A DNA stretch of 64,000 nt from Owenia fusiformis (taxonomy: Eukaryota > Annelida > Polychaeta > Sabellida > Oweniidae). Position 1 is the first letter of the stretch. Each line of letters opens with the position of its first letter. The notes below the pieces were generated by a model, which saw only the letters and a list, made by a program, of their open reading frames with translations, did not search any database and was not told the origin of the DNA. Both the position numbers and the translations under genes were made by a program. The DNA is taken from NCBI GenBank assembly GCA_903813345.2, contig CAIIXF020000010.1, positions 7,371,169 through 7,435,168 on the forward strand. The letters run 5' to 3'. Of this stretch, positions 5,946-53,815 are shown piece after piece.

Positions 5946-8900
5946 TCAAACTATTTCTTCGATTGTTTCAAGTCTTATTTGATCTTCTAAAATGATTGAT
6001 TTTTCGGGTTTAGGTGCAGGAGACACTCTTCTTGAGGATATTTTCAGAGAATTATTGATTACTGCTTTATTGGTAGTGCCCGCTTGTTCCGGTGCTATAG
6101 AAATGTCTCTCTTTTGAACACATTCCCCTTTAGATCTAGTTTGAGAATCAATGTCATTTGCATTTATCGTTTTCGTAGTTTCTACAACAATCTGGATTGG
6201 TGTAGCGGTTTTATTATTGCTATCAGTATTGAGATTACTGTTTTCGGATATTGTTTCAATATTTTCATTGGGTTTATAATTGGGGAAATTATTGCCTTGT
6301 GGTTTGGGAATGTTAGGAATACTTCTACTGGTAGTTTGTTCAATCAATCTCGCATTGTCACTTTCACTATATATTTCATTCAATGCTTCAGCTTCGGATA
6401 TATCTCTTCCACCTTTTCGCCTGTACACAATGACATCTTTGGAGCATGGCAAGGATGATTTCACATTTAAGTAGCCTTTATACAGGTGCCGTATCACGGC
6501 TGGAAGGTCTAGTAGTATTATGAATCCTAGGCAGGAGAGAATGATGACCACCCACACTGTCCCAATAGCTTTGCTCACTACTGGCTGGTCCACAGCTTCA
6601 TATACAATCTTCTTGACTGGAATATATGGAGGCTTTGTGGTTGTTACTGGGTGCTTTGGCGCAGGTGTATACATGAGGATAGTGGTGGGATATAGTGTCC
6701 TTGACGATGTTGTCGTGGTTGGTGAGGTTGCGGTAGTTTGTGCGATGGTTGGTGTTGTGGTAGGTATTGTGATGGTGGTTGGTATTGTAGTGGTGGTTGG
6801 TATTATAGTGTTGGTTAGTATCGTTGTGGTGGTTGGTGATGTTTTGCGGGTTGGGGTGGTTGTTGGTGTTGTAGTTGGTATTGTGGTTTGTGTTGTTGTT
6901 GGTATTGTGATGGTGGTTGGTATTGTAGTGGTGGTTGGTATCGGTGTGGTGGTTGGTGATGTTTTGCGGGTTGGGGTGGTTGTTGGTGTTGTAGTTGGTA
7001 TTGTGGTGGTGGTTGGTGCTGTGGTGGTGGTTTGTGTTGTGATCGGTATCGTCGTGGTGGTTGGTGTTGTGGTTGGTATCGTTGATGTGGTGGTTGGTGT
7101 TGTGATCGGTATCGTCGTGGTTTGTATCGGGGTGGTGGTTGGTATCGTTGTGGTGGTTGGTCTTGTGGTTGGTATCGTTGATGTGGTGGTTGGTGTGGTG
7201 GTTTGTATCGATGTGGTGGTTGGTGTTGTGGTTGGTATCGTTGTGGTGGTTGGTCTTGTGGTTGGTATCGATGTGGTGGTTGGTGTTGTGGTTGGTATCG
7301 TTGATGTGGTGGTTGGTGTTGTGATCGGTATCGTCGTGGTTTGTATCGGGGTGGTGGTTGGTATCGTTGTGGTGGTTGGTCTTGTGGTTGGTATCGTTGA
7401 TGTGGTGGTTGGTGTGGTGGTTTGTATCGATGTGGTGGTTGGTGTTGTGGTATGTATCGTTGTGGTGGTTGGTCTTGTGGTTGGTATCGTTGATGTGGTG
7501 GTTGGTCTTGTGGTTGGTATCGTTGATGTGGTGGTTGGTGTTGTGGTTTGTATAGTTGTGGTGGATGGTGTTGTGGTTTGTATCGATGTGGTGGTTGGTG
7601 TTGTGGTTGGTATCGTTGTGGTGGTTGGTCTTGTGGTTGGTATCGTTGATGTGGTGGTTGGTCTTGTGGTTGGTATCGTTGATGTGGTGGTTGGTGTTGT
7701 GGTTTGTATAGTTGTGGTGGATGGTTTTGTGGTTGGTATCGTTGTGGCGGTAGTTGTAGTTGTGGTTGATTGACAGGATATTTTTATGTCAGCACTCTCT
7801 GAAAATAAATGTGGTAATGAATTAATTGTAGACAAAATGCAAAAATCATAATTTGGATGAATGATGCCATGGTCACTAAAATGTTAAACATTTAGAAATG
7901 TGTAAACGCTCGGTGCAGATATATGCGTGCGCTGGGGAGTTAACGGGCAATTTTGAATTTGAATTCGTGAGAATTTATAAATCAAGCCGTGTTGGGTACT
8001 TCATATTCATATAGTTATGTAGATGATATTGGTGAAACGATTTGCCGTGATCCAAGCCCATTCATGATACAAAATATCATGATATCATCAAATTACAAAG
8101 TTTATTAATAAGCTTCTTCGAGTATTTAGGGGAAGCGCATATCTGATATTTTTCATATTCTTTATGTAATCACACAGAAACTATAGATGACTTTCAAGAT
8201 GCAAAATCAATATCGTATCAACGGGATATCTTGCTCATCAATACTGACTGTATGCTGTGAACGGTGTATAAAAGCGTCAATTTTAAAATACAGGGTGGTA
8301 AAAACGGCAACCCCACTGGCGGATTAGGGGGGGGGGGGGGGGCCCGGGCCCCCCCCCCCCCCCCTTGGGTGGGCCCAGAAAAAAAAAGTGGGCCCAAAAA
8401 AATTTTTGGGCCAAACAAGGCCTTCAGGCTCCAAAAAGTGGGCCTTTTAAGGCCTTATTTGTTAATTTCAGGCCAAATTTTGAAGCAAATGGGCCTCAAA
8501 ATTTCAAAATTTGGGCCCACTTTTGGATTTTAGGGGCCCAAAATTTTTTTCCGCCCAAGCGCGGACGTTTTTTTCTCTGACCTGAAAGTTGGGCCCCCCC
8601 CCCCTTGTTGGTTCCTGGATCCGCCCCTGAACCCTGCCGCTATTTTCCTCATATCTTTGCGAAATTACTTCTTGATATTTGGCACATATGTACATCATCC
8701 AATTTTCTATCGCCCTGCCACATTACATGACCATCGCACTGTCCGTAACTGATATCACCCGATTGCCAAAGATAGAGTGTACAAGAATGACCGCAAGACA
8801 ATTGCATACCTCAAAAGGGAGATCATCCATGTCTTTCAGGCCATACCTGCTGAGGAATGGACTCGGGTCATTGACAACTTGTGCAGGTTTACGCGATGAT

Positions 8901-14810: not shown

Positions 14811-17800
14811 TCAAACAAACTCTTCTATAGGTTCAAGGCCCATCTGATGTTCCAAAACAATCGACTTTTCAGGAAAAGGAATTACTGGCGACGTTCTATG
14901 TTTAGATGGTATTTTGAGTGTATCACTCTCACATATAACCTTATTTCCATGCCCTAATTTAGCATGGAGGTCAGTATATGGATCATTTTGAATTTTATCA
15001 AAACCGGAAGTTTGATTTGCATCCTCTCTTTGTAGTACAATATGAATCCCATGAGTTGGTTTGTCAATGTTTTCGGCAGTCAAATAACTGTCATGAATAT
15101 GCCGACTCTTGGCCGTGTCATATTTTGCATCATCTCTATCATACGTTTGTGATTTAGGCGGTTCATTGATGAGATCAACACTACCAGCATCATTGCTTAT
15201 CACAGTAATGAAGCTGTCATCATCACCAATATTAACGATGTTTCCTTTCTTAACAAATGCAGCCTCCGATGGTCTCCTATTTCCATTACGCGACCTCTTA
15301 GTTACGCCATGGGTACATGGCATACACGACTTCACATTCAAATAGCCCATATGTATATGTCTAATAAGGGCAGGTGCATCCAACAGTATCACTAATCCCA
15401 CGCAGGAAATCATTATCACAACCCAAATTGTCCCTATGGCTTTACTGACCACCGGCTTGTCCTCTGCCTCATATACTATCTTCTTCAATGGTGCATATAC
15501 AGGCTTTTTAGTTACACGAGGAGGTGGTGTTAACATTATGATAGGTGTTGTACGTTCTAGGAAATCATCTAACTGTGTGCGTTTGAATGGCCTCTCAGAT
15601 GTCTGATGGGTGCTAAATGTTGATATGGATGTGATGATTGATAATGGAAATGATGGAGATATTTGCTCTCGAGTTGTCATGGACTCAGAAATAGTTGTTT
15701 GTTCTTTTGTTGTCGTTTGCTTTGGACGTGATGTTGTAGTTTGGTCAGAGGTTATTTGCTCTAGAGTCAGTGTTGTAGATTGTTCAGTTGTTGAAGTCCG
15801 TTTTGGAGTGGCGGTGGGTTGTTCAGTTGTTGCACTTTGTTCAGTAGTTGTAGCTTGTGCATTGGTTGTAGGTTGTTCAGTGGTTGCACTTTGTTCAGTA
15901 GTTGTAGCTTGTGAAGTGGTTGTAGGTTGTTCAGTAGTTGTAGCTTGTTCAGTGGTTGTAGGTTCTTCCGTAGTTGCACTTTGTTCAGTAGTTGTAGCTT
16001 GTTCAGTGGTTGTAGGTTCTTCAGTAGTTATGGTTTCTTCAGTCGTCGTTGCCTTAGCAGTTGTTGGAAATAAAGTGGTTGACGCCGTGGTTAAAGGCGG
16101 ACAAGATACTGTGATGTTTCCATTTTCTGAAAAATACAAAATTCATTTGATGTTTTCCAAGCAACGGGCATTCACAACAACGGTTTGCCATTGGATGTGG
16201 TATAGTTGCCTGGTTGATGTTCTCTTGAAAAGTAGCTATATAGTGAATGTTATGAGCGAGTTCGAACTTCGAACCCCTGGTAATTTCCAACCTTATTTTT
16301 GGATGACAATGAACTAGCTCAGAATGACTGAGTGTATTCACAATTATTCATTATTATTTATTTTTAACAGAATATCATCTGTATAAGTCTGCCAATTAGA
16401 TACTAATTAACCTACTTACCAAAACTGGCAAGAGGATATACTTTATTATTTGCGTTGTCCGTGTTGTCATTTGTTGTAAACACTTCTTTGTTGATCACCC
16501 AGTTGTCTTCCGAAAAGCCAGCGTCAGGTCCAGTATTATCTTTTCGATGGGCCCAGCCCATATTATAACTCCAGGAATTGTTAATACTTTCTTCGGGCAC
16601 AATGTCCCCAAACTGATCATGTACAGTACCATCTTTAAGCAAGATTACAGCTTCATTATCCCCTTGGAGTTTAACTTTTCTATCTCTATAGAAATGGACC
16701 GTATAGCAACCGAAAAAGTCATCCAATCGGTCCCTATAACTGCTGACGTAGATGAAACTTCCTGCAGAAATACTTGCTCCAACAGGAAAGCTCATATTGT
16801 TTGTTCTACTTGTCAAACCCTGATTCGTAATCTCTATCGTATATCTATCAATGTCAGGAATCTCTGCATCTGTGTATAGTTCAATGATATCGAACATTCT
16901 GACGGATATAACACCTGTTATCACCAACCTCTCACCTGAAAAGAAATTGAAATGTCCTGTTCACATACAGCTAGTATTTAACTCCTTTTGATTATTGTTT
17001 AAGAGCAATACAGCCACCAGGAAAACATTTTGACAAATCACCTCCAGGCGACTGATAAATAGAAATAGGGACTCTGATAATTTCTATTTGGAATGCTAAA
17101 TAAAGTATACATGTAGAATAGATATGTAAATTTCTAATTGTATTGTATTTTGTTTACCACCAATGAAGGCGAGCAATACCTCTTGAGTATATCCCGTATA
17201 TATACGGTCGTAATTTACGTAATTAGTTTGGAAGATAGACCCAGAAACCACCCTCTCAAAGGAGCCCTGTGTTCTTTTATGTGCACTTATACATAGACAT
17301 ACAAGTACACACCACAGCCTTTTGTACGAGTTGCGGACTACTCAGTCAAACACCCTGAAGTACTTCACGCAAACAAGCAAATTAAGTTTTGCCTGAACCG
17401 GGGATCGAATCCGGACCTATTGCGTAAGAGGTACCTGCGCTACCGCTGAGCTACACATTAATCACACTAATGATACGAAATAAAACAGATTTGAAGACGA
17501 TATTTACAAAATCTATCTACAGTTTATTACCATATGCACTAATTCTTAGAGGTCGGGAAGGACTTACGAATTACGGCGAATTACGCGGCAGAAATATACT
17601 GTGATTACTTCTTAAAAATGAGTTTTACTTCAGTATCATAATGTGTTTATAATGTTCCATGTACCAATAGTGACAACCTTATTTGATTCAAAACATCAAG
17701 AAGTGTCCAACGGCATAACGGGGACCTATCAACTTTTAAAAATAATTAAGACCAAAGCCATTAAAGGGTCATCATTGAGTCAACTTGACCTGTCAACTCA

Positions 17801-35570: not shown

Positions 35571-35682
35571 TTTGATTTAGAGAGTCAAATATGTAACTTT
35601 CGTTGCACTCATGACTTCTCTTATACTTTTGAGAAAATGTTTCTATGTATTACAGCTACACTCATAAAAACTGTCATTACAG

Positions 35683-36447
35683 GTACTTCTGGCCAGCCAA
35701 GTATCACTGAATCAAATACGACAGACTCACGACCAACTCTCAAAATATGCTACCAAAAACTTTCAAATCCCGCCTCTGGAAGATTCCAACACTCAAAATT
35801 CGCCTCCAGATCACGATGAGAAGATCAACTTTGAGGTACGGGAGCCTAAAAACGAACATAGAAGTGAAGACAGTGATATTAAACATGATTTTATCGGCCC
35901 AGTGGATGGACAGATTCGTAAGAAAAGAACTACTTCGGGGTGTCCCGATCCGACCCGCGATACTTTACATTCAATCCTTGGTCAGTCATTCAATCCCAGC
36001 ATTATGGTCGATAGAAGGAGCGACCTTCCAACGGGAACACTGCCCCCCACGGAATACCGCCCTTACTCGAATAATCCAAAGAGGTCCTCAAGGAAAAATC
36101 TTCTGCTCGACTTGGCCCATAATTTAGGACGTTCAAAACGCTCCCGTCGGGGTCAAACAGACCCATTCTCGGCAGCTCTTCCATTGCCATGGGAGTGCGA
36201 GTCTTTGGAAGTCTGGCGAGATTTGGGAACTGATTATTACCCACGTTATATTCGAGAATATGAATGTATGTCCAATCAAAACTGTTGGTATGGACATTAT
36301 AAATGTAAGCCTAAGTACTACAAGGCGAAGGTGTTACGTCGCAACACGGAAAGATGTGCCCCAGATATGTCTCTTCCAGCTGAAATAAGGAACAATTGGT
36401 TGCTCAGGGATATCGGTATCGCCATCTATTGTGAATGCGGCAGATGA
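35683..36447 (+). CDS. Trunk/PTTH-like cystine-knot ligand precursor, main exon (5' exon missing)
   Basis: The exon starts after tcattacag at 35682 and ends in TGA, giving 254 residues in frame. It begins VLLASQ, which looks like the end of a signal peptide, so the Met exon lies upstream and was not found. Two basic cleavage sites are present, RKKR (residues 79-82) and RSKRSRR (150-156). Between them is SGCPDPTRDTLHSILGQSFN, resembling the conserved pro-region block of Trunk. The last 98 residues hold seven Cys and the family hallmarks WRDLGTDYYPRYIREYEC, CWYGHYKCKP, KAKVLRR, SLPAEIRNNW and a terminal CEC. In insects Trunk and PTTH activate the receptor tyrosine kinase Torso. The role here is unknown but should be as a secreted, processed ligand. 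Noggin is a more distant alternative. A polyadenylation signal follows closely. Confidence 0.85.
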   Translation, partial: VLLASQVSLNQIRQTHDQLSKYATKNFQIPPLEDSNTQNSPPDHDEKINFEVREPKNEHRSEDSDIKHDFIGPVDGQIRKKRTTSGCPDPTRDTLHSILGQSFNPSIMVDRRSDLPTGTLPPTEYRPYSNNPKRSSRKNLLLDLAHNLGRSKRSRRGQTDPFSAALPLPWECESLEVWRDLGTDYYPRYIREYECMSNQNCWYGHYKCKPKYYKAKVLRRNTERCAPDMSLPAEIRNNWLLRDIGIAIYCECGR

Positions 36448-43539: not shown

Positions 43540-43680
43540 TCTTATTTCTGAAGACCATGTCTTCATATTTCTGAAGTGTTCACACATGTTCTTCATGTTT
43601 TTGAAGTATTCACAAATATTCTTCACAGTTCTGTATGTACAACTATTTATATTTCTGAAGTATTCACATATTCAGGATAA
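43540..43680 (-). repeat. Repeats of the last codons running into the 3' UTR
   Basis: The end of the coding region (tgtgaatacttcagaaatat, coding VNTSEI) is repeated with changes at least twice more in the following 110 bases (gaatacttcaaaaacatgaa and gaacacttcagaaatatgaa). Confidence 0.6.
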
Positions 43681-46600
43681 ATCTCTAGCTGGTGTTTATG
43701 AGGTCTATTAGCATGAAGAATCTGAGAATATACCACCGAGTTCTGAGCTTTCAATTTATTCACTTCATCAACCTCTTTCAAGGTGTCCTTTTTATCAACT
43801 TTTGGAAAATTAACTTCAACATATTTTAATGATTTTGGAACGTCATACTTATTTTCCATCACAGTTGAAATCGTGGCATAGGAGCTGTCACTCATATCAC
43901 TTTGTATTGAGTGAACCCTTGCTCTGGGTTCAGGCTTTGGCTTTTTCTTTTCTTTGGTCATATATAGTTGACTGCAACAGCAACTGACCCAGAGTTTGTA
44001 TTTTATACTATTGTACAGTCGCCTCATACAACCTTGTGTATCATCCAGTGATTCCTGACATCCTTTCCTCAGCGCCATTCTATTGGATTTCTTCCTGCAT
44101 ATGATTGCCCACACAACCACAAATACTATAAGGCACACACAACACAGAACAATACGCATGATTAACACCTCTATGCGCTTTTCAGATTTGATATCATCAT
44201 CCACGTCGTTATACCAATTTGGCATGTACATATTTCCATTGAGTACCTCATTGACTCGACGTAGTAATGGGTAACGTGTGTCGCAAACTGCATTAAAGTC
44301 ATCAAAATCTAAACTCCAAACCATCACACCTGCTAGTTTCATTTCTTTAGCATACTGTGTCTAAAAGAAAACATGAACATATACTACCTTAATTGAATAT
44401 ACACAAAACATGCATCCTTCAACATGCTTGGTCCAATAGACACAAAGAGGTTAAAACACATGCTCCAACTGGTTCAATATGTTTAACTTGTACAATCACA
44501 ATGTGTCAGATTAAATTATCACAATGTGCTCCTCTTAAATGATCAAATCGGCCAAACTTGTGTTTTGCTTAGTTTGCAAGCTAGGTCAAGTGAGCAAGAC
44601 ACAAAAGTTCAATACATCAATTTAAGGACTCTCACCTTTATTCCAATACTATCTTGATCCTCATAGCCTATCCATTGCTTTTGATTAACATTGTGAAGGT
44701 ATGGCGTCTTCTGATTTTCTTGCCAATGTCTTGTCCATCCCTTGTCAAAGTTGGGACAAATCTATAAATCATTTTTAATATGGGTCAGTTTATTGTTGGG
44801 GGATAGACCAATCTAGATGAGCATGCTCCCTTTTGGCTATGATATCAATTTAACAGTTTTGGGGCAAAAATAGAGTTAACATATTTTAATATTATCTTAT
44901 ATCAAATGCTGCTTTCAGCATAACACAGCCATTAATAAATAATCAATCATTTGTTAAGATGGTTTAAACATAGCAGGTGCGTGAAAAGGTGATAAGAAAA
45001 TGACTAAACACGACTTTCATAATATGGAGGTTATATATAATGATTTATTGATGAAGGTGGTTTGTGCAAATTACAGTGTACTATAGACTGATGAGGGGAA
45101 GAGTTTACCTCATAATAAGAAAGAGTGCCGGCTGTGTTGGTGTATTTCCCTGGCAATCCTGAGGCGCAGCTCCTATCTCCAACATTTACCTCTGCAGAGC
45201 TACAAATTGCAAAACTTCGTCCATAAAATGGCAGTCCCAGGTTTAGTTTCTCTCTTGGAGCACCCCTGCGTATCCAGTCCTTTACTGCCCAGTCCTGAAG
45301 AGTATAAGAAAATCACAAATCACAAATCAATGATCCAGACCCTCGAAACAGACTTTACTGTCCCCTAGAGATGGCTTCACCTTATCAAGAAGGCCTAAGC
45401 TCAGAGGTAGATTTAGAAATTAAGCCCAAAAACTGAGGACAAATCATGGAGCATACATTAATCATTCAATTGATTTAATTTTGCATAAATTTTGAAGAGA
45501 AAAAGACAATACAATCTGGGTAATTTCCAATATCAACTAACCTGAGAAAACTCATCATCTGCACTGGTACCATATAAAGGACTATGGAGTCCAAGCTTTC
45601 CATCCCATGGTCCATGAAGGTCATATGTCATCAAGCTGATGAAATCAAGGTAACTGCAAATTCATAAAGATATCTCAACTATGACATCTATCTCCTCAAA
45701 TGAATCTATATATGTCTGAAGGTAATATTTACCATCTACTCTAGCCTTGATTAAATTGGCAGATATAAGACATCCGAGAAATATCAGAATACCCTGTCAT
45801 TTAGGATTTTCAAAGGCACAAATCATAAGGGCAATGCAATATTTAAGATCTAATACATCTTGATACATAGTTCTACTACAAAAACTTTGTAAAAAAATAT
45901 GTTAGTTTCTTACTGAGATATTTTCTCTACTTCATAAGCAGTGTATGACACAAGTCTTCCAACCCCTACTGCAGCTGTCAACATAAGCTTGCTATCTGCA
46001 GAATTTATTGAGCCTTCAACGTCAAATGCGTATCGAAATTCCTGTAATTACAGATAAAACTTCAATCAGGCATTTATGATTTATTAATGGCATATTCTTT
46101 ATTTTGGTCAAAATATGTTTTCAGTACATAATTAACCTGAATTGAGATGACATAAAATTCTAAACAAAGCCAAACATAATATGTAATTATTACATCTAAA
46201 ATAGGCGTTAATGTTGTTTTACTGTATCATATTACAAAAAAATAGTTTGTACTCAGAGATATAATTGCCAGTGATGTTTGCATTTGACAATAAGCAAATG
46301 AGAGTTAGTAGGTCAAGTAATTAAACACAGAAAGCCAAGAGACTGTTACTGAAGAACAAAGGCAAAAAAGCAAGTAAACAGGAAAACTGAATGGGACCAA
46401 GAGATTGATTATAAAAAAAGGCAAAATATGAAAGTTAAGGAAACAAGACACTGATTGTGAAAAGCAAAGCCAAAAAAATAAAATCAAGTAAACACAGAAA
46501 ACTGAATCAGGATTAAAATAAAAATTCATAAAAACCAAAGCAAAAGCAAAAAAAGCAAGTCAAGGAAACAAGGAGAAACAAAGGCCGGCAAGAAAGTTCA

Positions 46601-49600
46601 TATAAGTTCAGTAAAAAAAACAAGGAAAACTCTATAAGAGACTGGGGGTAGACCACTAGACCTAATATCTGACTTATAGTATCAAATATGAACCAAATCC
46701 AAATTACAGCCAAAAACTCCTCTGACACTTCGAGTTACATATTTAAGTTAGAAAATGTGTGTTAAAAGGAACTCATGGACAGCCTCTATATCCATCTACA
46801 ATATATAAGCGCAAATGCCAAAGGGAAGGGTGACTAAAAACTTTAAAGAAACCCAACAAGAAAAGCAAACTGTAAGTGGAAATCTGTCATAAGAAAAGAA
46901 GCCCCAATATATCCCAAAACCATGATCTAACGTGAAAAGAAACAATGTCTAACATACCCCTCCCCCTCCGATCGAGAACCAATATCACAATCCAGGACCA
47001 GAACACCAAGGGACATTTCATTCATACTAAAGTCATTACAATACATGTTGAAGAAAAATTGAAAAAATTGATAGCCAATACTCATAACATCAAAAATAGT
47101 TGCAGATACTATAAAAGATAGGGTTTTCAGTCTCAAATGATGTGGGATAGATAAAATCCAGTCTCGAAGTCCATAGGCAATTCAAAGGGTCAACATCCGT
47201 TCGTTTTTTCAAAATACTCATAGACAAATCTTTGTTGGATTATATTCAATGACAGTTATCCTACATGCTGTGCAATGTTTCTCTTCAAACAACCTCAAAT
47301 AACTCAAGTATAATTGTTTCATTTTCCAGTATAGACTAGAATCATATGATGATAAAAGCCTCTAGAAAGTGAAAGTACTTATATTTTGACGAGCCGGCAA
47401 GAGACCTGTATCAAAATACTCCTTTATATATAACAAAAGATTTGTGAGATTTAACATGGTGAACGAGGTGTCAAAAGGCACTAATTTGACAATTAATTAA
47501 AAGAATATTCCTCATTTCTTGACTAGTTCAACATATACAGTCAGTGTTGATCACCACATAAATAAATGTGGTCAACTTGTCAATATGCCAGGCTGGAGCC
47601 CTGCCAACCAATCAGTGTTTTGGATTTTGCACACTGGTTTCATATAGATTGTACTTTATCTGGTTTGATTAACTTTATTGAACTAGTACCAATAATCACC
47701 AAACACAATCAGCTCCCTATCAAAACAGATTTGTTAGCCATTGGTTCAGTAAATGGGATCTGTCATTTATCTCATCTCAACCTATCGTATAAAACAGAGA
47801 AAACAGGATGTGTCTTCTGTCCACAACATGGTTTAACTTTATGAAATGCTCAACACAAATGCAATAGAGGGAACGATGAAAATATGATTGATGCATAATA
47901 TCCAAACAGAATAAGATAACAGATAAATGTGATGACATTTTCAGCAATGTGAAAGGTATAACTCCGGAACAGTAAAAATGGCACAATACACTTCCAGTGA
48001 TACGAGTTCACACAAATCAGTAAATTAAATGTAATTCTCAATGGTACATCCATCATAGGGTGTAAGACTAGATAATATGAAAGACCTTATGTCAAGAAAT
48101 GTATAGATCACTAAGACTGTTTTTTACAAATTTAAAAGTGATATGAAGAAGTCTTCCACTATCACCAGTAATTATTTGACATGCTGCATTCTCTCACAAG
48201 TGAGCTATCTTCTGCTGCTAAGAGGAACATGTTCTTAAGTTGTCAGCTGTGACAGAAATATACTATATGTATGAGCCGGTGATTCTAAACAATAACTTGA
48301 CAAAAAATCTAGGACATTTGCAATTGCGAAAAGCATTAGAGCTGCACATTATCTACAAGATAATTGTCCCATTACAAGGTGGTATGGCATAAACTGTTAT
48401 TTTACCCGTAAACTATGCTGATCAAGACTATGGATTATCATGCTATATCATTGGTGCAGCAAAATACCATTTTCAGGAGATGGTGCACACAGCACTGCAA
48501 CTTAGTAAGACTGATGTGCTAAGGCTGTCAAAAATGATTTTATTGCTCCATCCCCATTGTTTGCCCTTCCCCAGTGTTCATAGTTTTTTAATCAAATAAA
48601 AGAAGTCATAATTGTTTGAAGCAAGAATTCTTTTTAATCGCTATTTAGACTATTACTCAAAATAATAAACGAAAGCCTCCGCTAAAAACGTTAAAAATTA
48701 ATAATGAAAAATGATCGTTTTGAGTGGAGGATGTTCACGCCTTTTCATTAACTTCGTATTCAGTCATTAAAGGTTTCTTATTGTGCAGAAGTATGATTGA
48801 CAATTGTCACTGCTTGCGCCGGTTCATTTTATCTGAGAAAAAGAAGTAGTTTTCGGTTAAATAACAAATTGTGCGGAAACATTGAAACTTGTAAAAATGA
48901 CCTGCTCCACCTCATTGTACAAAATAATCGATGATAGGCTGTGATGATGATAGTGACAATTATGTTTCCACATAACATTATATGTTTGAATATCCATTTT
49001 ATATTACATGTAATAGTAAACCAACCATCGTATCTGCAAATGTTTTGAGGATATATCAAAGTATACATTGGTGACATACACCACATTCGAATATTTTACT
49101 TATATGATCATTTGAGTAGTATGACATATGAACTGGAATATGACACAATGGAGTGTGAAATAAAATTCAATTGAAATATATTATATATTTCTTGGTGAAG
49201 TGCGAATTCGGGTTGTAAACCTTAATAATATCTCTATTATTAATGCATATAAATAGTACATTGACAATTTAATTCACGTATGAGCCAACCACAAGCAAAT
49301 TCCCTAAAAGCTCCCAAAAATCTCCAAAATAAATCAAATATGGTTTATTTTCACTTTTTTATAGTTAAACAGACTGTTTGTACTAAAACAAATTTTCAAA
49401 AAAAATCTTTTAATTTTAAAATTTTTTTCTGCAAAAAAACACAATTTTTCACCCAAAAACACATTTTGACACCTATTTCTTCTTGTTAAATCTCAGTTCC
49501 AATTTAGGAACCCTTTACCTTTCAATTGGTAAACATGAATTGCCGGCTCGTCAAAATATAAGATGTCATGATATTTTCAACCCTCTGATTCTAGTCTAGT

Positions 49601-52600
49601 AGCCATACATAGTTTGTTTAATAAAGTAATGATATATGAAACATTAATATGTGCTGACAATGTTTTATTACTGCCCTTCTGATATTACTTACTCCATCAC
49701 TATTATTACAAGTGCTTGTCTTATCCTGCCCCACACTCGTGTGCGTTTCATGTTTAATTTTAGAAGAATAAACATAAAATGGTAATGATAGTATTGAATC
49801 TCATGCTGTTATTACGTTCAATAAGTATTGCTAATTTTGTTATATTTTGGTTTTCTTTTTTTTTCTTCATGAAACAATACATATCTTTGTCAATTCTAAA
49901 TTGATTGTCATGAAAGGAGGAGGGAAAGTATCGCAACAGATTACGGACAGTCATATGTTGGATTTTGGCTATTTTCTCAGGACTAAAACAGGTACATATG
50001 TTAGGCCAATGCATTATCTCCAGGAAAAGCTCTCATAGAGATGATAAAATAATTTTGACTTGAATTTTTGTTGCATCAATATGTTGCGTTTTGACGCACA
50101 ATTAAACCAAAGGAATAAGTAATTCCTCCAGGAGTTTTAAAGATATCCATTATGGGTGACCAAAATTAGCTGAAAGCAATGGATCGCATGAGTTTTCCTA
50201 TGGGAAAATAACATGGCTAATATTATTTCCACTTTATCGAAGAGGAATCACTTATTCCTTTAAAGGGGTAACTGTGTCTTAAAATGCAACATATTGATGC
50301 AAAAAATTTGAAAAAGCAGGAGTGGAAGGGGTTGAAAATCAGGACAACATTTCAGAAAAAAAACATGTGGGTGGGTTGTTTGCATCTCACCTGTTTCAAA
50401 ATCGAAATTATTTTATCTGCTCTATGAATGCTTTTCCTTGAGATAATGCATTGGCCTAACATATGTATCTGTTTAAATCCTCAGAAAATAGCCAAAATCC
50501 AACATATGACTGTCCAAAATCTGAAGCGATACTTTCCTTCCTCCTTTTAACAGAATAAGGTCAAATATATGTTCCTTAAGTTGGGAAAGTTTCATGAAGT
50601 AAAAAGCAATAAAAGTTATAGCAAAATTAGCAATGCACCCTATAAGGGCCTGTATTGTACCAATATATAGATCATTACATTAAATAATGGGTAGCAAATA
50701 ATGATATCAAAACAATTTAAACCTGAATGATGATCTCAAGACTATACAATTTTACATTGAGAAGTTATTGTGTTAACATAACCCATTCCTCTGTCTTACC
50801 TTAAAAAGTTGTGTACCCTGTCTTCAGACTTACCTTTTGAAGTAATGTGAACATCAGCCTGTTCTCTGTCTTACATTGAGAAATTGTGTAAAATTACCCT
50901 GTCTTTTGTCTTACCTTTACAAGTTGTGTGGGCATTTTCTTGGCTTCTGTTTTACCTTAAAAAGTTGGGCAAACATTTCTCTTTCTTTTACCTTAAGAAG
51001 TTGTGTGAACATTTCCCTATCCTCAGGAGGGCTACCTCTATTTGCTGGATACTCCCAATCAATATCCAATCCATCAAAACCATGGTGGCGTAAGAATGAT
51101 AAGGAATGTGTTATAAACCTTCGACGACCTTCAAGTTTCTCCACAATGTTTGTAAAAGGCTTTGAGGCAGCACTCCATCCTCCAATTGCAAGAAGTACCT
51201 TAAGGGTAGGTACAGTGTTCTTAAGTTTTAGGACTTCTTTGTACAGGTCTGAAAAATCAATTTCAATATGTAGCAAAGCAATAGATTAATTGATTAACTG
51301 ATGAATCTCTTAATTGTTTATACTCAAGTGATGAAAGGGTAGACAAAAAATGTTATAGAAAAATGCTATGTTATATAAAATGTACTTAAAAACTGAATTT
51401 TAAGAGTGCAACAAGAGCATAATAGCAATCAAATATGACAGACTTGCCTAACTAGTACATTTAAGTTATTCATCAAAACACAATGCATTATTATTGATGC
51501 ATAATACACCTGGTTGTCTTGACACCTTCATTGTACCTAAGGTCATACTTAACTTAGATGTAATTCATAATACTATGTAATTCAAACAGTCAATTTATTT
51601 AAATATGAGAACCTTCATAATAAATTGTACCATGGGTATTAGATTCACATGGGAATTAAAATAGCTGCCATTGCGAATAGGTGAGCTTTTGAGATTCCAC
51701 TTATGATATAACTGAAGATTTATATAAACATGTTTTCAAAGTGAAACATTTGAGAATTACAATCATAATTGAAGATTACAACTGTGCCACCAATGTGTTG
51801 ACAGATAGAAATATGGTTGGACAGACAGACAGATGGACAGTGGGGGATTACAATAGCTCACCCATAAACAGTCACAGGGAAAATAAATGCCAAATATTCC
51901 AAGCTTTGATATTTTGATATTACACAGACAACTGAGACAGACAAAATAGGAGGTACAATGGAATGACTTAAAGTAAAATTTACAATTACAAAAAGGTTTG
52001 GTACAATACAAGGGGGATGTTAATATATAGATTTACCTTCATCATTATGTTCAGCAGTTTTAATTATCTCATCCACATTAGCAAATGCAAATATGATATG
52101 AGTGCAGAGTTGTGGCACAATATCACGAGGCTGGAATTTGGCAGGTTCAGCTCTATACTGGGACCAGTTGGTATAATAACAGAATATGTTCTTGATAGGC
52201 TCTGCAATACAAATACAGTTGCTACAACCAGAATACAAAGTCAATATTTCACCCAGTATTTATTCGTCAATAAATACCTGGTCTGTACTAAGTGTTTCGT
52301 TCAGTGCACTGGAAGTTGGAAATTAAGTGAAGATTTTGCAACATTTTGGTGAGTTTTCATGTTTGAATTGTAATATAGACCTCAGATCAGGTATTTTATC
52401 GTGTAATAAAGACCTTAGGCCTAGGCACAAAAACTTCTGTACAGAAAATGTTTGTGCCTAGCCCTGTGGTATTTATTTGTGGATATATAAGTACCTTCTC
52501 TTCAGTCTATATTTCTTAATTAGGTAACAGAGAGCTGAGTATTGTTGCAGTACTGTTGGTATAGGGCCCAATTCATGATAATTGATATTTCAAAAAATAC

Positions 52601-53815
52601 AAAATTCGAAAATTAAAATATTCATTTGGCGATGTTTTTTCTTGAATTGCAAAGGATACACATTATATTTTATAAAATCGTAAGCGGCATCAATGGAACT
52701 ATATTTTTGTTGCATTTCGTAACCTGAGCTATTTTCAAAGAAATGGAAAATTAACATATTTTCGTTAATCGTTCAATAAGTCTGGTTTTATTTTGAATAA
52801 GATATTGTTTATTAAATTTGTGAGTGTCAAACAAACAATAAACATGTTTCCTTGGATATACGTATTGAATTGTAAAAATAAAAATGTAAATAGAGTCAAC
52901 GTAATCGCAAGATACGTTCATACAATTTCACATGTACAGTTCTTCCCCGATACCCTCCCTATAGAACACAATTTGTGGCTTCATTTAATATGGTTTTTCA
53001 AGAAAAGGGTGTTTAATAATCATGAATCCTCCAATTTTTTAAAACATCTGTTTTGGAGGACATATTTATATTAGACTCCATTAATCATGATTACCCCTTT
53101 TACAACGACATTTAGTTGAACAGTTGAATGTGCAGACAAGGTGATGACATTTGAGCAAACTGATGTTTCATCGTTTCAGAAAGATCTGATCTAGTTTCTC
53201 AATATCTTTTATATGTTAATGTTAATGTCTGTAACAACATCCTAGACGGTGAACTTGACCATGAATTTATTAGTTCAACCTCCACAAACTATCAATGTCA
53301 GTATACAATACATTTAATTAACATGATAAAAAATATCAAGGCAAAAGATACATTATAGTGAAATCCGAGTTTATATTTGCCGAAAAATAAAATATTTGTT
53401 AATTGTCTAAAAATCCATCATTAAAGAGATTTTTTTACAAAGATAAGCAATGTTCCAAATAGGTACCTTGTGGTAATGATTACTTGAAGGCTCATCAACA
53501 AAAAATAACACATTGCTTGTCCATGAAATAAACATATATGTGCAGTTTTACAACAGTTTTTTAAAATATCAATTATCGTAAATTGGCCCATATTTACAGA
53601 ATATGTTCTTGGTAGGCTTTGCAACACAAATATGGTTTGTATTTGTTTATAATGTATATCATTGATTGTAATAAGTGAATAAAAAAAAGATGGTACAACA
53701 TAGAAAAAGACTCACCTGTTTTGTTTGTATCACTGGTTACTATGGACACAATCTCCATGGAGAAAAGAAAAGAAACTAAGCATGCTTTTAACCAAAACAT
53801 TTTGCTGAAATGCAA
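43647..53815 (-). CDS. Transmembrane GH18 chitinase-like receptor with tyrosine-motif tail
   Basis: Eight exons: 53815-53716, 52201-52037, 51248-50992, 46041-45914, 45653-45542, 45294-45109, 44761-44636 and 44360-43647. All are GT/AG, phases agree, and the total is 1788 nt (595 residues). Residues 1-30 form a signal peptide (FWLKACLVSFLFSMEIVSIV). Residues about 34-400 are one GH18 domain: FCYYTNWSQYR, LLAIGGWS, DGLDIDWEYP with the catalytic acid near Glu154, YLDFISLMTYDLHGPWD, LGLPFYGRSF and VMVWSLDFDDF. Chitin hydrolysis is therefore expected. No chitin-binding module is seen. A membrane helix (about 422-446, IVLCCVCLIVFVVVWAII) precedes a basic, Cys-rich stretch and a tail with SSYATI, KYDVP, LKYVEV, VVYSQI and EYVNT. 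These match ITIM, ITSM-like, SH2 and Grb2-type (YxN) motifs. Family and topology are firm. A signalling role is inference. Confidence 0.9.
47335..49600. mobile_element. Possible TIR element in intron 3 of the chitinase-like gene
   Basis: agactagaatca ... tatattttgacgagccggcaa (47335-47408) is mirrored by ttgccggctcgtcaaaatata ... tgattctagtctag (49540-49600). The arms match at their outer and inner ends but differ between. The interior of about 2.1 kb has no recognisable transposase. Confidence 0.5.
49912..50549. mobile_element. Foldback element, arms about 150-190 bp
   Basis: Left arm aaggagg(a)agggaaagtatc, then catatgttggattttggcta, then taggccaatgcattatctcc, has a matching reverse complement at 50400-50549. 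The centre keeps shorter inverted pieces (aaaggaataagtaattcc/aggaatcacttattcctt and ttgcatcaatatgttgc/gcaacatattgatgcaa). A degraded relative is at 33790-34250. It lies in intron 3 of the chitinase-like gene. Confidence 0.75.
50788..51020 (-). repeat. Tandem copies of an exon end with its splice donor
   Basis: The end of exon 3 plus donor (gaaatgttcacacaacttct then taag/gtaaaag) is repeated about five times downstream on the minus strand with decreasing similarity. Each copy keeps a form of acaacttttaaag/gtaaga. Several could act as alternative donors. The nearest one would add about 14 codons (VKEREMFAQLFK and so on) in frame. Confidence 0.65.

Follow-up and report, generated by a model that had tools for sequence, protein, structure and literature searches.

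A predicted membrane-anchored chitinase with a tyrosine-motif tail in the annelid Owenia fusiformis

Could an animal chitinase also act as a receptor? This question is raised by a gene in a 64,000-nucleotide stretch of the Owenia fusiformis genome (contig CAIIXF020000010.1, positions 7,371,169 to 7,435,168; hereafter the window), in which a GH18 enzyme domain, a putative membrane helix and a tail with several tyrosine motifs are encoded in one reading frame. To our knowledge, the sensing of chitin by invertebrates, be it their own, fungal or from prey, is poorly defined.

Gene structure and GH18 domain

The chitinase gene is located on the minus strand, and its coding sequence starts with an ATG at 53800 and ends with a stop codon at 43647. 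Joining of the exons from the raw sequence yielded 8 exons and a protein of 590 residues, and all 7 introns had GT-AG boundaries. The following features were assigned (window coordinates):

53716..53800, minus strand: exon 1, start codon and a hydrophobic leader, signal-peptide-like by eye
52037..52201, minus strand: exon 2, beginning of the GH18 domain
50992..51248, minus strand: exon 3, GH18 including the catalytic DGLDIDWEYP
45914..46041, minus strand: exon 4, GH18
45542..45653, minus strand: exon 5, GH18 including MTYD
45109..45294, minus strand: exon 6, GH18 including YGRSF
44636..44761, minus strand: exon 7, GH18
43647..44360, minus strand: exon 8, end of GH18 (VWSLDFDDF), putative helix 423-441, 149-residue tail with the Y514, Y525, Y533, Y564 and Y584 motifs, stop codon
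43453..43458, minus strand: possible polyadenylation signal AATAAA, a motif match only, approximately 190 bases past the stop codon

The gene is real and well formed, and its architecture, as a transcript-free gene model, can be considered secure. Exon 8 (714 bases) has an acceptor AG preceded by a pyrimidine-rich stretch and carries the last GH18 segment, the helix and the tail together. Because these parts share one exon, skipping of exon 8 would remove the end of GH18 as well, and a soluble form of the chitinase would need splicing within this exon.

A profile search of the protein detected the complete Pfam GH18 domain (PF00704; model positions 1-317 of 317, residues 33-373, E 2.1e-94). 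The segment DGLDIDWE, which fits the catalytic DxxDxDxE pattern, starts at residue 142, MTYD is found at 220, and VWSLD, which contains the late tryptophan, at 367. Since DGLDIDWEYP, MTYD, YGRSF and VWSLD are all present, the enzyme is probably active, in agreement with the original prediction, which had described an apparently active GH18 domain with an intact DGLDIDWEYP. Among solved structures, the best match was chitotriosidase (E 8.3e-101, residues 34-400), to which the catalytic and other active-site segments could be aligned. Human chitotriosidase (CHIT1), the closest solved relative of the Owenia GH18, is a secreted protein and, unlike the Owenia chitinase, lacks the helix and tail. 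It is described as carrying an appended chitin-binding domain (PMC5459812). A C-terminal chitin-binding domain of the CBM14 type was not found in the Owenia protein, in which GH18 was the only Pfam match.

A leader and one membrane helix were read from the sequence by eye, as for a membrane-anchored chitinase. The helix was placed at a hydrophobic stretch of 19 residues (423-441) and is followed by 149 residues starting with RKK, consistent with the single helix and tail of about 150 residues described previously. The tail would face the cytosol, and a CCC cluster noticed in it by eye could be palmitoylated. The structure prediction for exon 8 had a mean pLDDT of 44.3 (one sequence); because confidence was low over the end of GH18 as well, this prediction is a poor guide to whether the tail is disordered.

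Other features were also observed at this locus. Intron 3 contains perfect 23-base inverted repeats, 2.1 kb apart, which resemble DNA transposon ends (window 47378-49562), and a 158-base inverted repeat, 87% complementary, which resembles a foldback or MITE element (window 49904-50556). Elsewhere in the window, an ORF on the plus strand (35668-36447) matched Pfam Noggin (E 1.1e-8) and, judged by eye, may encode a noggin-like or trunk/PTTH-like ligand. Two ORFs on the minus strand (5946-7883 and 14811-16142) are related to each other, with 40% identity over 256 residues. Each has mucin-like stretches rich in Thr and a single hydrophobic helix, their C-terminal tails are similar, and no Pfam match was found for either.

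Tyrosine motifs of the tail

Nine tyrosines are present in the tail (Y469, 474, 486, 514, 525, 533, 564, 581 and 584). The five tyrosine motifs that had been claimed could all be located, within 76 residues (512-587): Y514 SSYATI, Y525 KYDVP, Y533 LKYVEV, Y564 VVYSQI and Y584 EYVNT. As proposed, three of them match the ITIM form, here [SIVL]xYxx[IVL], and one, YVNT, fits YxN. The ITIM matches are paired, with spacings of 19 and 31 residues. YDVP, to which no role had been assigned, fits the Crk SH2 consensus YxxP. The ITIM consensus accepts I at the last position, and spacings of 19 and 31 residues suit tandem-SH2 phosphatases. A published form of the motif is I/V/L/SxYxxL/V (PMC9570199).

When the tail was shuffled 200,000 times, three or more ITIM matches occurred in 0.8% of cases, in 0.9% when tyrosines were fixed, and in 1.2-1.4% when T was also permitted at -2. 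YxN alone (approximately 40% of shuffles) and YxxP alone (approximately 35%) were both ordinary. The joint pattern of at least three ITIM matches, YxN and YxxP, which was defined after it had been seen, was found in 0.08-0.09% of shuffles. The ectodomain served as a control: 1 of its 21 tyrosines matched the ITIM form (2 with T). Comparison of 3/9 in the tail with 1/21 gave p 0.07 (0.14 with T), and these enrichment p-values should be read in light of the fact that the gene had been chosen for its motif pattern. Thus, the ITIM enrichment in the tail is modest.

The YxxPhi consensus is a tyrosine-based sorting signal, and four tail tyrosines also fit it (YNSI, YATI, YVEV and YSQI). Sorting is a serious rival to signalling: the tail may be used for trafficking, its YxxPhi signals binding clathrin adaptors and cycling or internalising the enzyme along with chitin fragments, all without SH2 signalling. 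In the available portions of their reports, the anchored chitinases Ca-Chit and TcCHT7 are described without mention of tyrosine signalling, which would suit such a role. However, the YxxPhi motifs are not enriched, as four or more of them appeared in 10-12% of shuffles, and sorting leaves both YDVP and YVNT unexplained. We consider trafficking a possible function of the tail, held with low confidence.

Coding signature of the tail and other GH18 genes

The frame remains open for 188 codons past the end of GH18. At the local non-coding stop frequency, such a run has a chance of about 2e-6, and 0 of 20,000 simulations stayed open. In addition, a codon score was trained on the GH18-encoding sequence of this gene, with intron 3 and approximately 3 kb of downstream sequence as controls. 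The tail scored 0.039 in its own frame, better than in any of the other five and higher than all 2000 non-coding controls, which reached at most -0.158. Of the other frames, one on the reverse strand (-0.145) lay slightly above this maximum, and the remaining four did not exceed it. Given that 188 open codons are unlikely by chance and that the codon score is coding-like, we read the tail as coding.

In a genome search, 86 matches to GH18 exons were listed, and these were grouped by hand into approximately 30 genes. A second copy of the tail was not found in the genome: the three matches at E up to 10 were the gene itself and two hits no better than chance (E 3.63 and 6.55). For this reason, there is no independent conservation of the tail.

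The 3′ ends of the other GH18 genes were analyzed in 30 pieces of 1-6.5 kb each. In 23 of these pieces the last GH18 exon could be identified, 20 by pattern and 3 (L027-L029) by tblastn; it was not found in L013, L014, L020, L023, L025, L032 and L033, and L023 may belong to the gene that ends in L005. For a GH18 N-terminal match at C9:4679610-4679759 (+), corresponding to L033, the open frame was given as 8833 residues, and elsewhere as 78 for nearly the same place. Among the 23 recognised last exons, none was seen to continue in frame into a helix and tail; these scans require a single reading frame, and tails that are split between exons or lie beyond the 1-6.5 kb would escape them. A hydrophobic stretch (mean at least 1.7) was present in 3 of 20 last-exon frames (L011, L022 and L024), each time a few residues from the end. 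By eye, these ends look like GPI signals, suggesting that the genes may encode GPI-anchored chitinases. The 30 pieces were also scanned more widely, for a hydropathy of at least 1.9 with 40 or more in-frame residues downstream. The single match, in L015, was rejected as a helix and tail: CBM14-like cysteines follow, and it looks by eye like intron read-through.

The remaining ends, also judged by eye, were diverse. Some genes stop soon after GH18, L005 and L026 have threonine-rich or long charged extensions, and L004 ends in a CBM14-like cysteine domain. Longer matches pointed to two close relatives of the ectodomain. The first (C11:23402494-23404542, 56% over query 57-141) ends just past GH18, and the second (C9:34745456-34753290, 50% over query 6-142) has a linker and a CBM14-like end. 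Within the reach of these scans, no other gene in the genome shares the tail.

A lineage-specific tail may have no specific tyrosine function, the protein being an anchored enzyme for local chitin remodelling. That no second tail copy was found in the genome and that motif enrichment is modest are consistent with this reading, and insect CHT7 works as an anchored remodelling enzyme (PMC5891080). On the other hand, the tail has a coding signature, and three ITIM matches, YDVP and YVNT fall within its 76-residue segment. We regard an inert tail as unlikely. It is very improbable that the gene model is wrong and that the chitinase is made without helix and tail: the gene is known from DNA alone, but both parts are in frame with the last GH18 segment, in the same exon and after its pyrimidine-preceded AG acceptor, and the tail shows a coding signal.

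Known systems and a candidate signalling role

Several known proteins resemble parts of this architecture. In the oyster Crassostrea, a transmembrane anchor is present at the C-terminus of Ca-Chit, and a family 18 chitinase of C. gigas is cited in the Ca-Chit literature for its transmembrane domain and its role in immunity (PMC4457423, PMC1945033). Ca-Chit and Cg-Chit (chitinase-3 type) are, like the Owenia protein, lophotrochozoan GH18 chitinases, and Ca-Chit is likewise anchored at its C-terminus. However, Ca-Chit has 1095 residues, a threonine-rich region and two active sites, and no tyrosine tail is mentioned in the accessible parts of these reports. Insect group III CHT7 is also a membrane-bound active GH18 enzyme that faces extracellular chitin, but it is described as having an N-terminal anchor, two catalytic domains, CBM14 and a role in chitin organisation (PMC5891080). 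Plant GH18 receptor-like kinases, such as tobacco CHRK1, were represented by 91 sequences in one survey and similarly join an extracellular GH18 to an intracellular signalling part (PMC5485988). These proteins signal by their own kinase domain, whereas the Owenia gene has a tyrosine tail; an intracellular kinase domain of the CHRK1 type was not found in it, as no Pfam match besides GH18 was detected. Because anchored chitinases and plant GH18 receptor kinases are already known, only the tyrosine-motif tail would be new.

In Siglecs, PD-1 and SIT, a type I helix is combined with a tail in which ITIM and YxN sites are spaced apart. These ITIM receptors and adaptors have Ig-type or short ectodomains and no enzyme, in contrast to the GH18 enzyme of the Owenia protein. 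Homology of the tail to ITIM receptors was not seen among the matches listed, which covered Pfam profiles and solved chains only. In addition, among the listed matches to open-licence literature (mainly titles and abstract openings), we noticed none that described tyrosine signalling motifs in an animal GH18 protein.

A type I membrane chitinase coupled to SH2 signalling is, in our tentative view, the most likely single reading, followed by tyrosine-based sorting and then by an inert or enzyme-only anchor. The gene, its domains, the hydrophobic segments and the motifs are seen in the sequence; from these we infer topology, activity, phosphorylation, partners and cell type. A chitotriosidase-like GH18 enzyme would be placed outside the cell, with one helix across the membrane and the tyrosine-motif tail in the cytosol. 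Clustering of the enzyme on chitin would lead to phosphorylation of the tail by a Src-type kinase, and the phosphotyrosines would recruit SH2 proteins. The paired ITIM-like sites, with their spacings of 19 and 31, may recruit a SHP-2-type phosphatase, YDVP may recruit Crk, and YVNT may recruit Grb2. In this way, the cutting or holding of chitin at the surface would influence what the cell does; phagocytes, or the cells responsible for shaping chaetal chitin, are possible examples.

Signalling by the tail is plausible from its motifs. It is favoured by the intact GH18, by the helix followed by RKK, by a tail that shares its exon with the helix and is open and coding-like, and by the three ITIM matches at a shuffle p of approximately 0.008. 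Analogy with other systems points in the same direction: phosphorylated YDVP peptides were reported to bind a choanoflagellate Crk SH2 domain by calorimetry, and cytosolic YxxP repeats to occur in pre-metazoan membrane proteins (PMC5043372). The Owenia genome also has SH2 exon matches, at least 48 among the matches listed, of which 48/48 were above the Pfam cut-off. Against signalling stand the modest ITIM enrichment (p 0.07 versus the ectodomain) in a gene picked for its pattern, the fit of four tyrosines to YxxPhi and the failure to find a second tail copy in the genome. For an annelid host, chaetae or immunity would be more natural guesses than shell formation.

A bolder proposal is that an animal chitin receptor is itself an active chitinase, which would cut chitin and report it via phosphotyrosine sites of the ITIM, Crk and Grb2 types. 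Such a route to chitin sensing would parallel the plant GH18 receptor kinases while being independent of them. We consider this proposal speculative and, in its full form, doubtful. Nevertheless, a chitinase and an immune-receptor-like tail in one gene would provide a direct candidate for testing chitin sensing in invertebrates. If the proposal is true, animals, like plants, would have turned a carbohydrate-cutting enzyme into a receptor.
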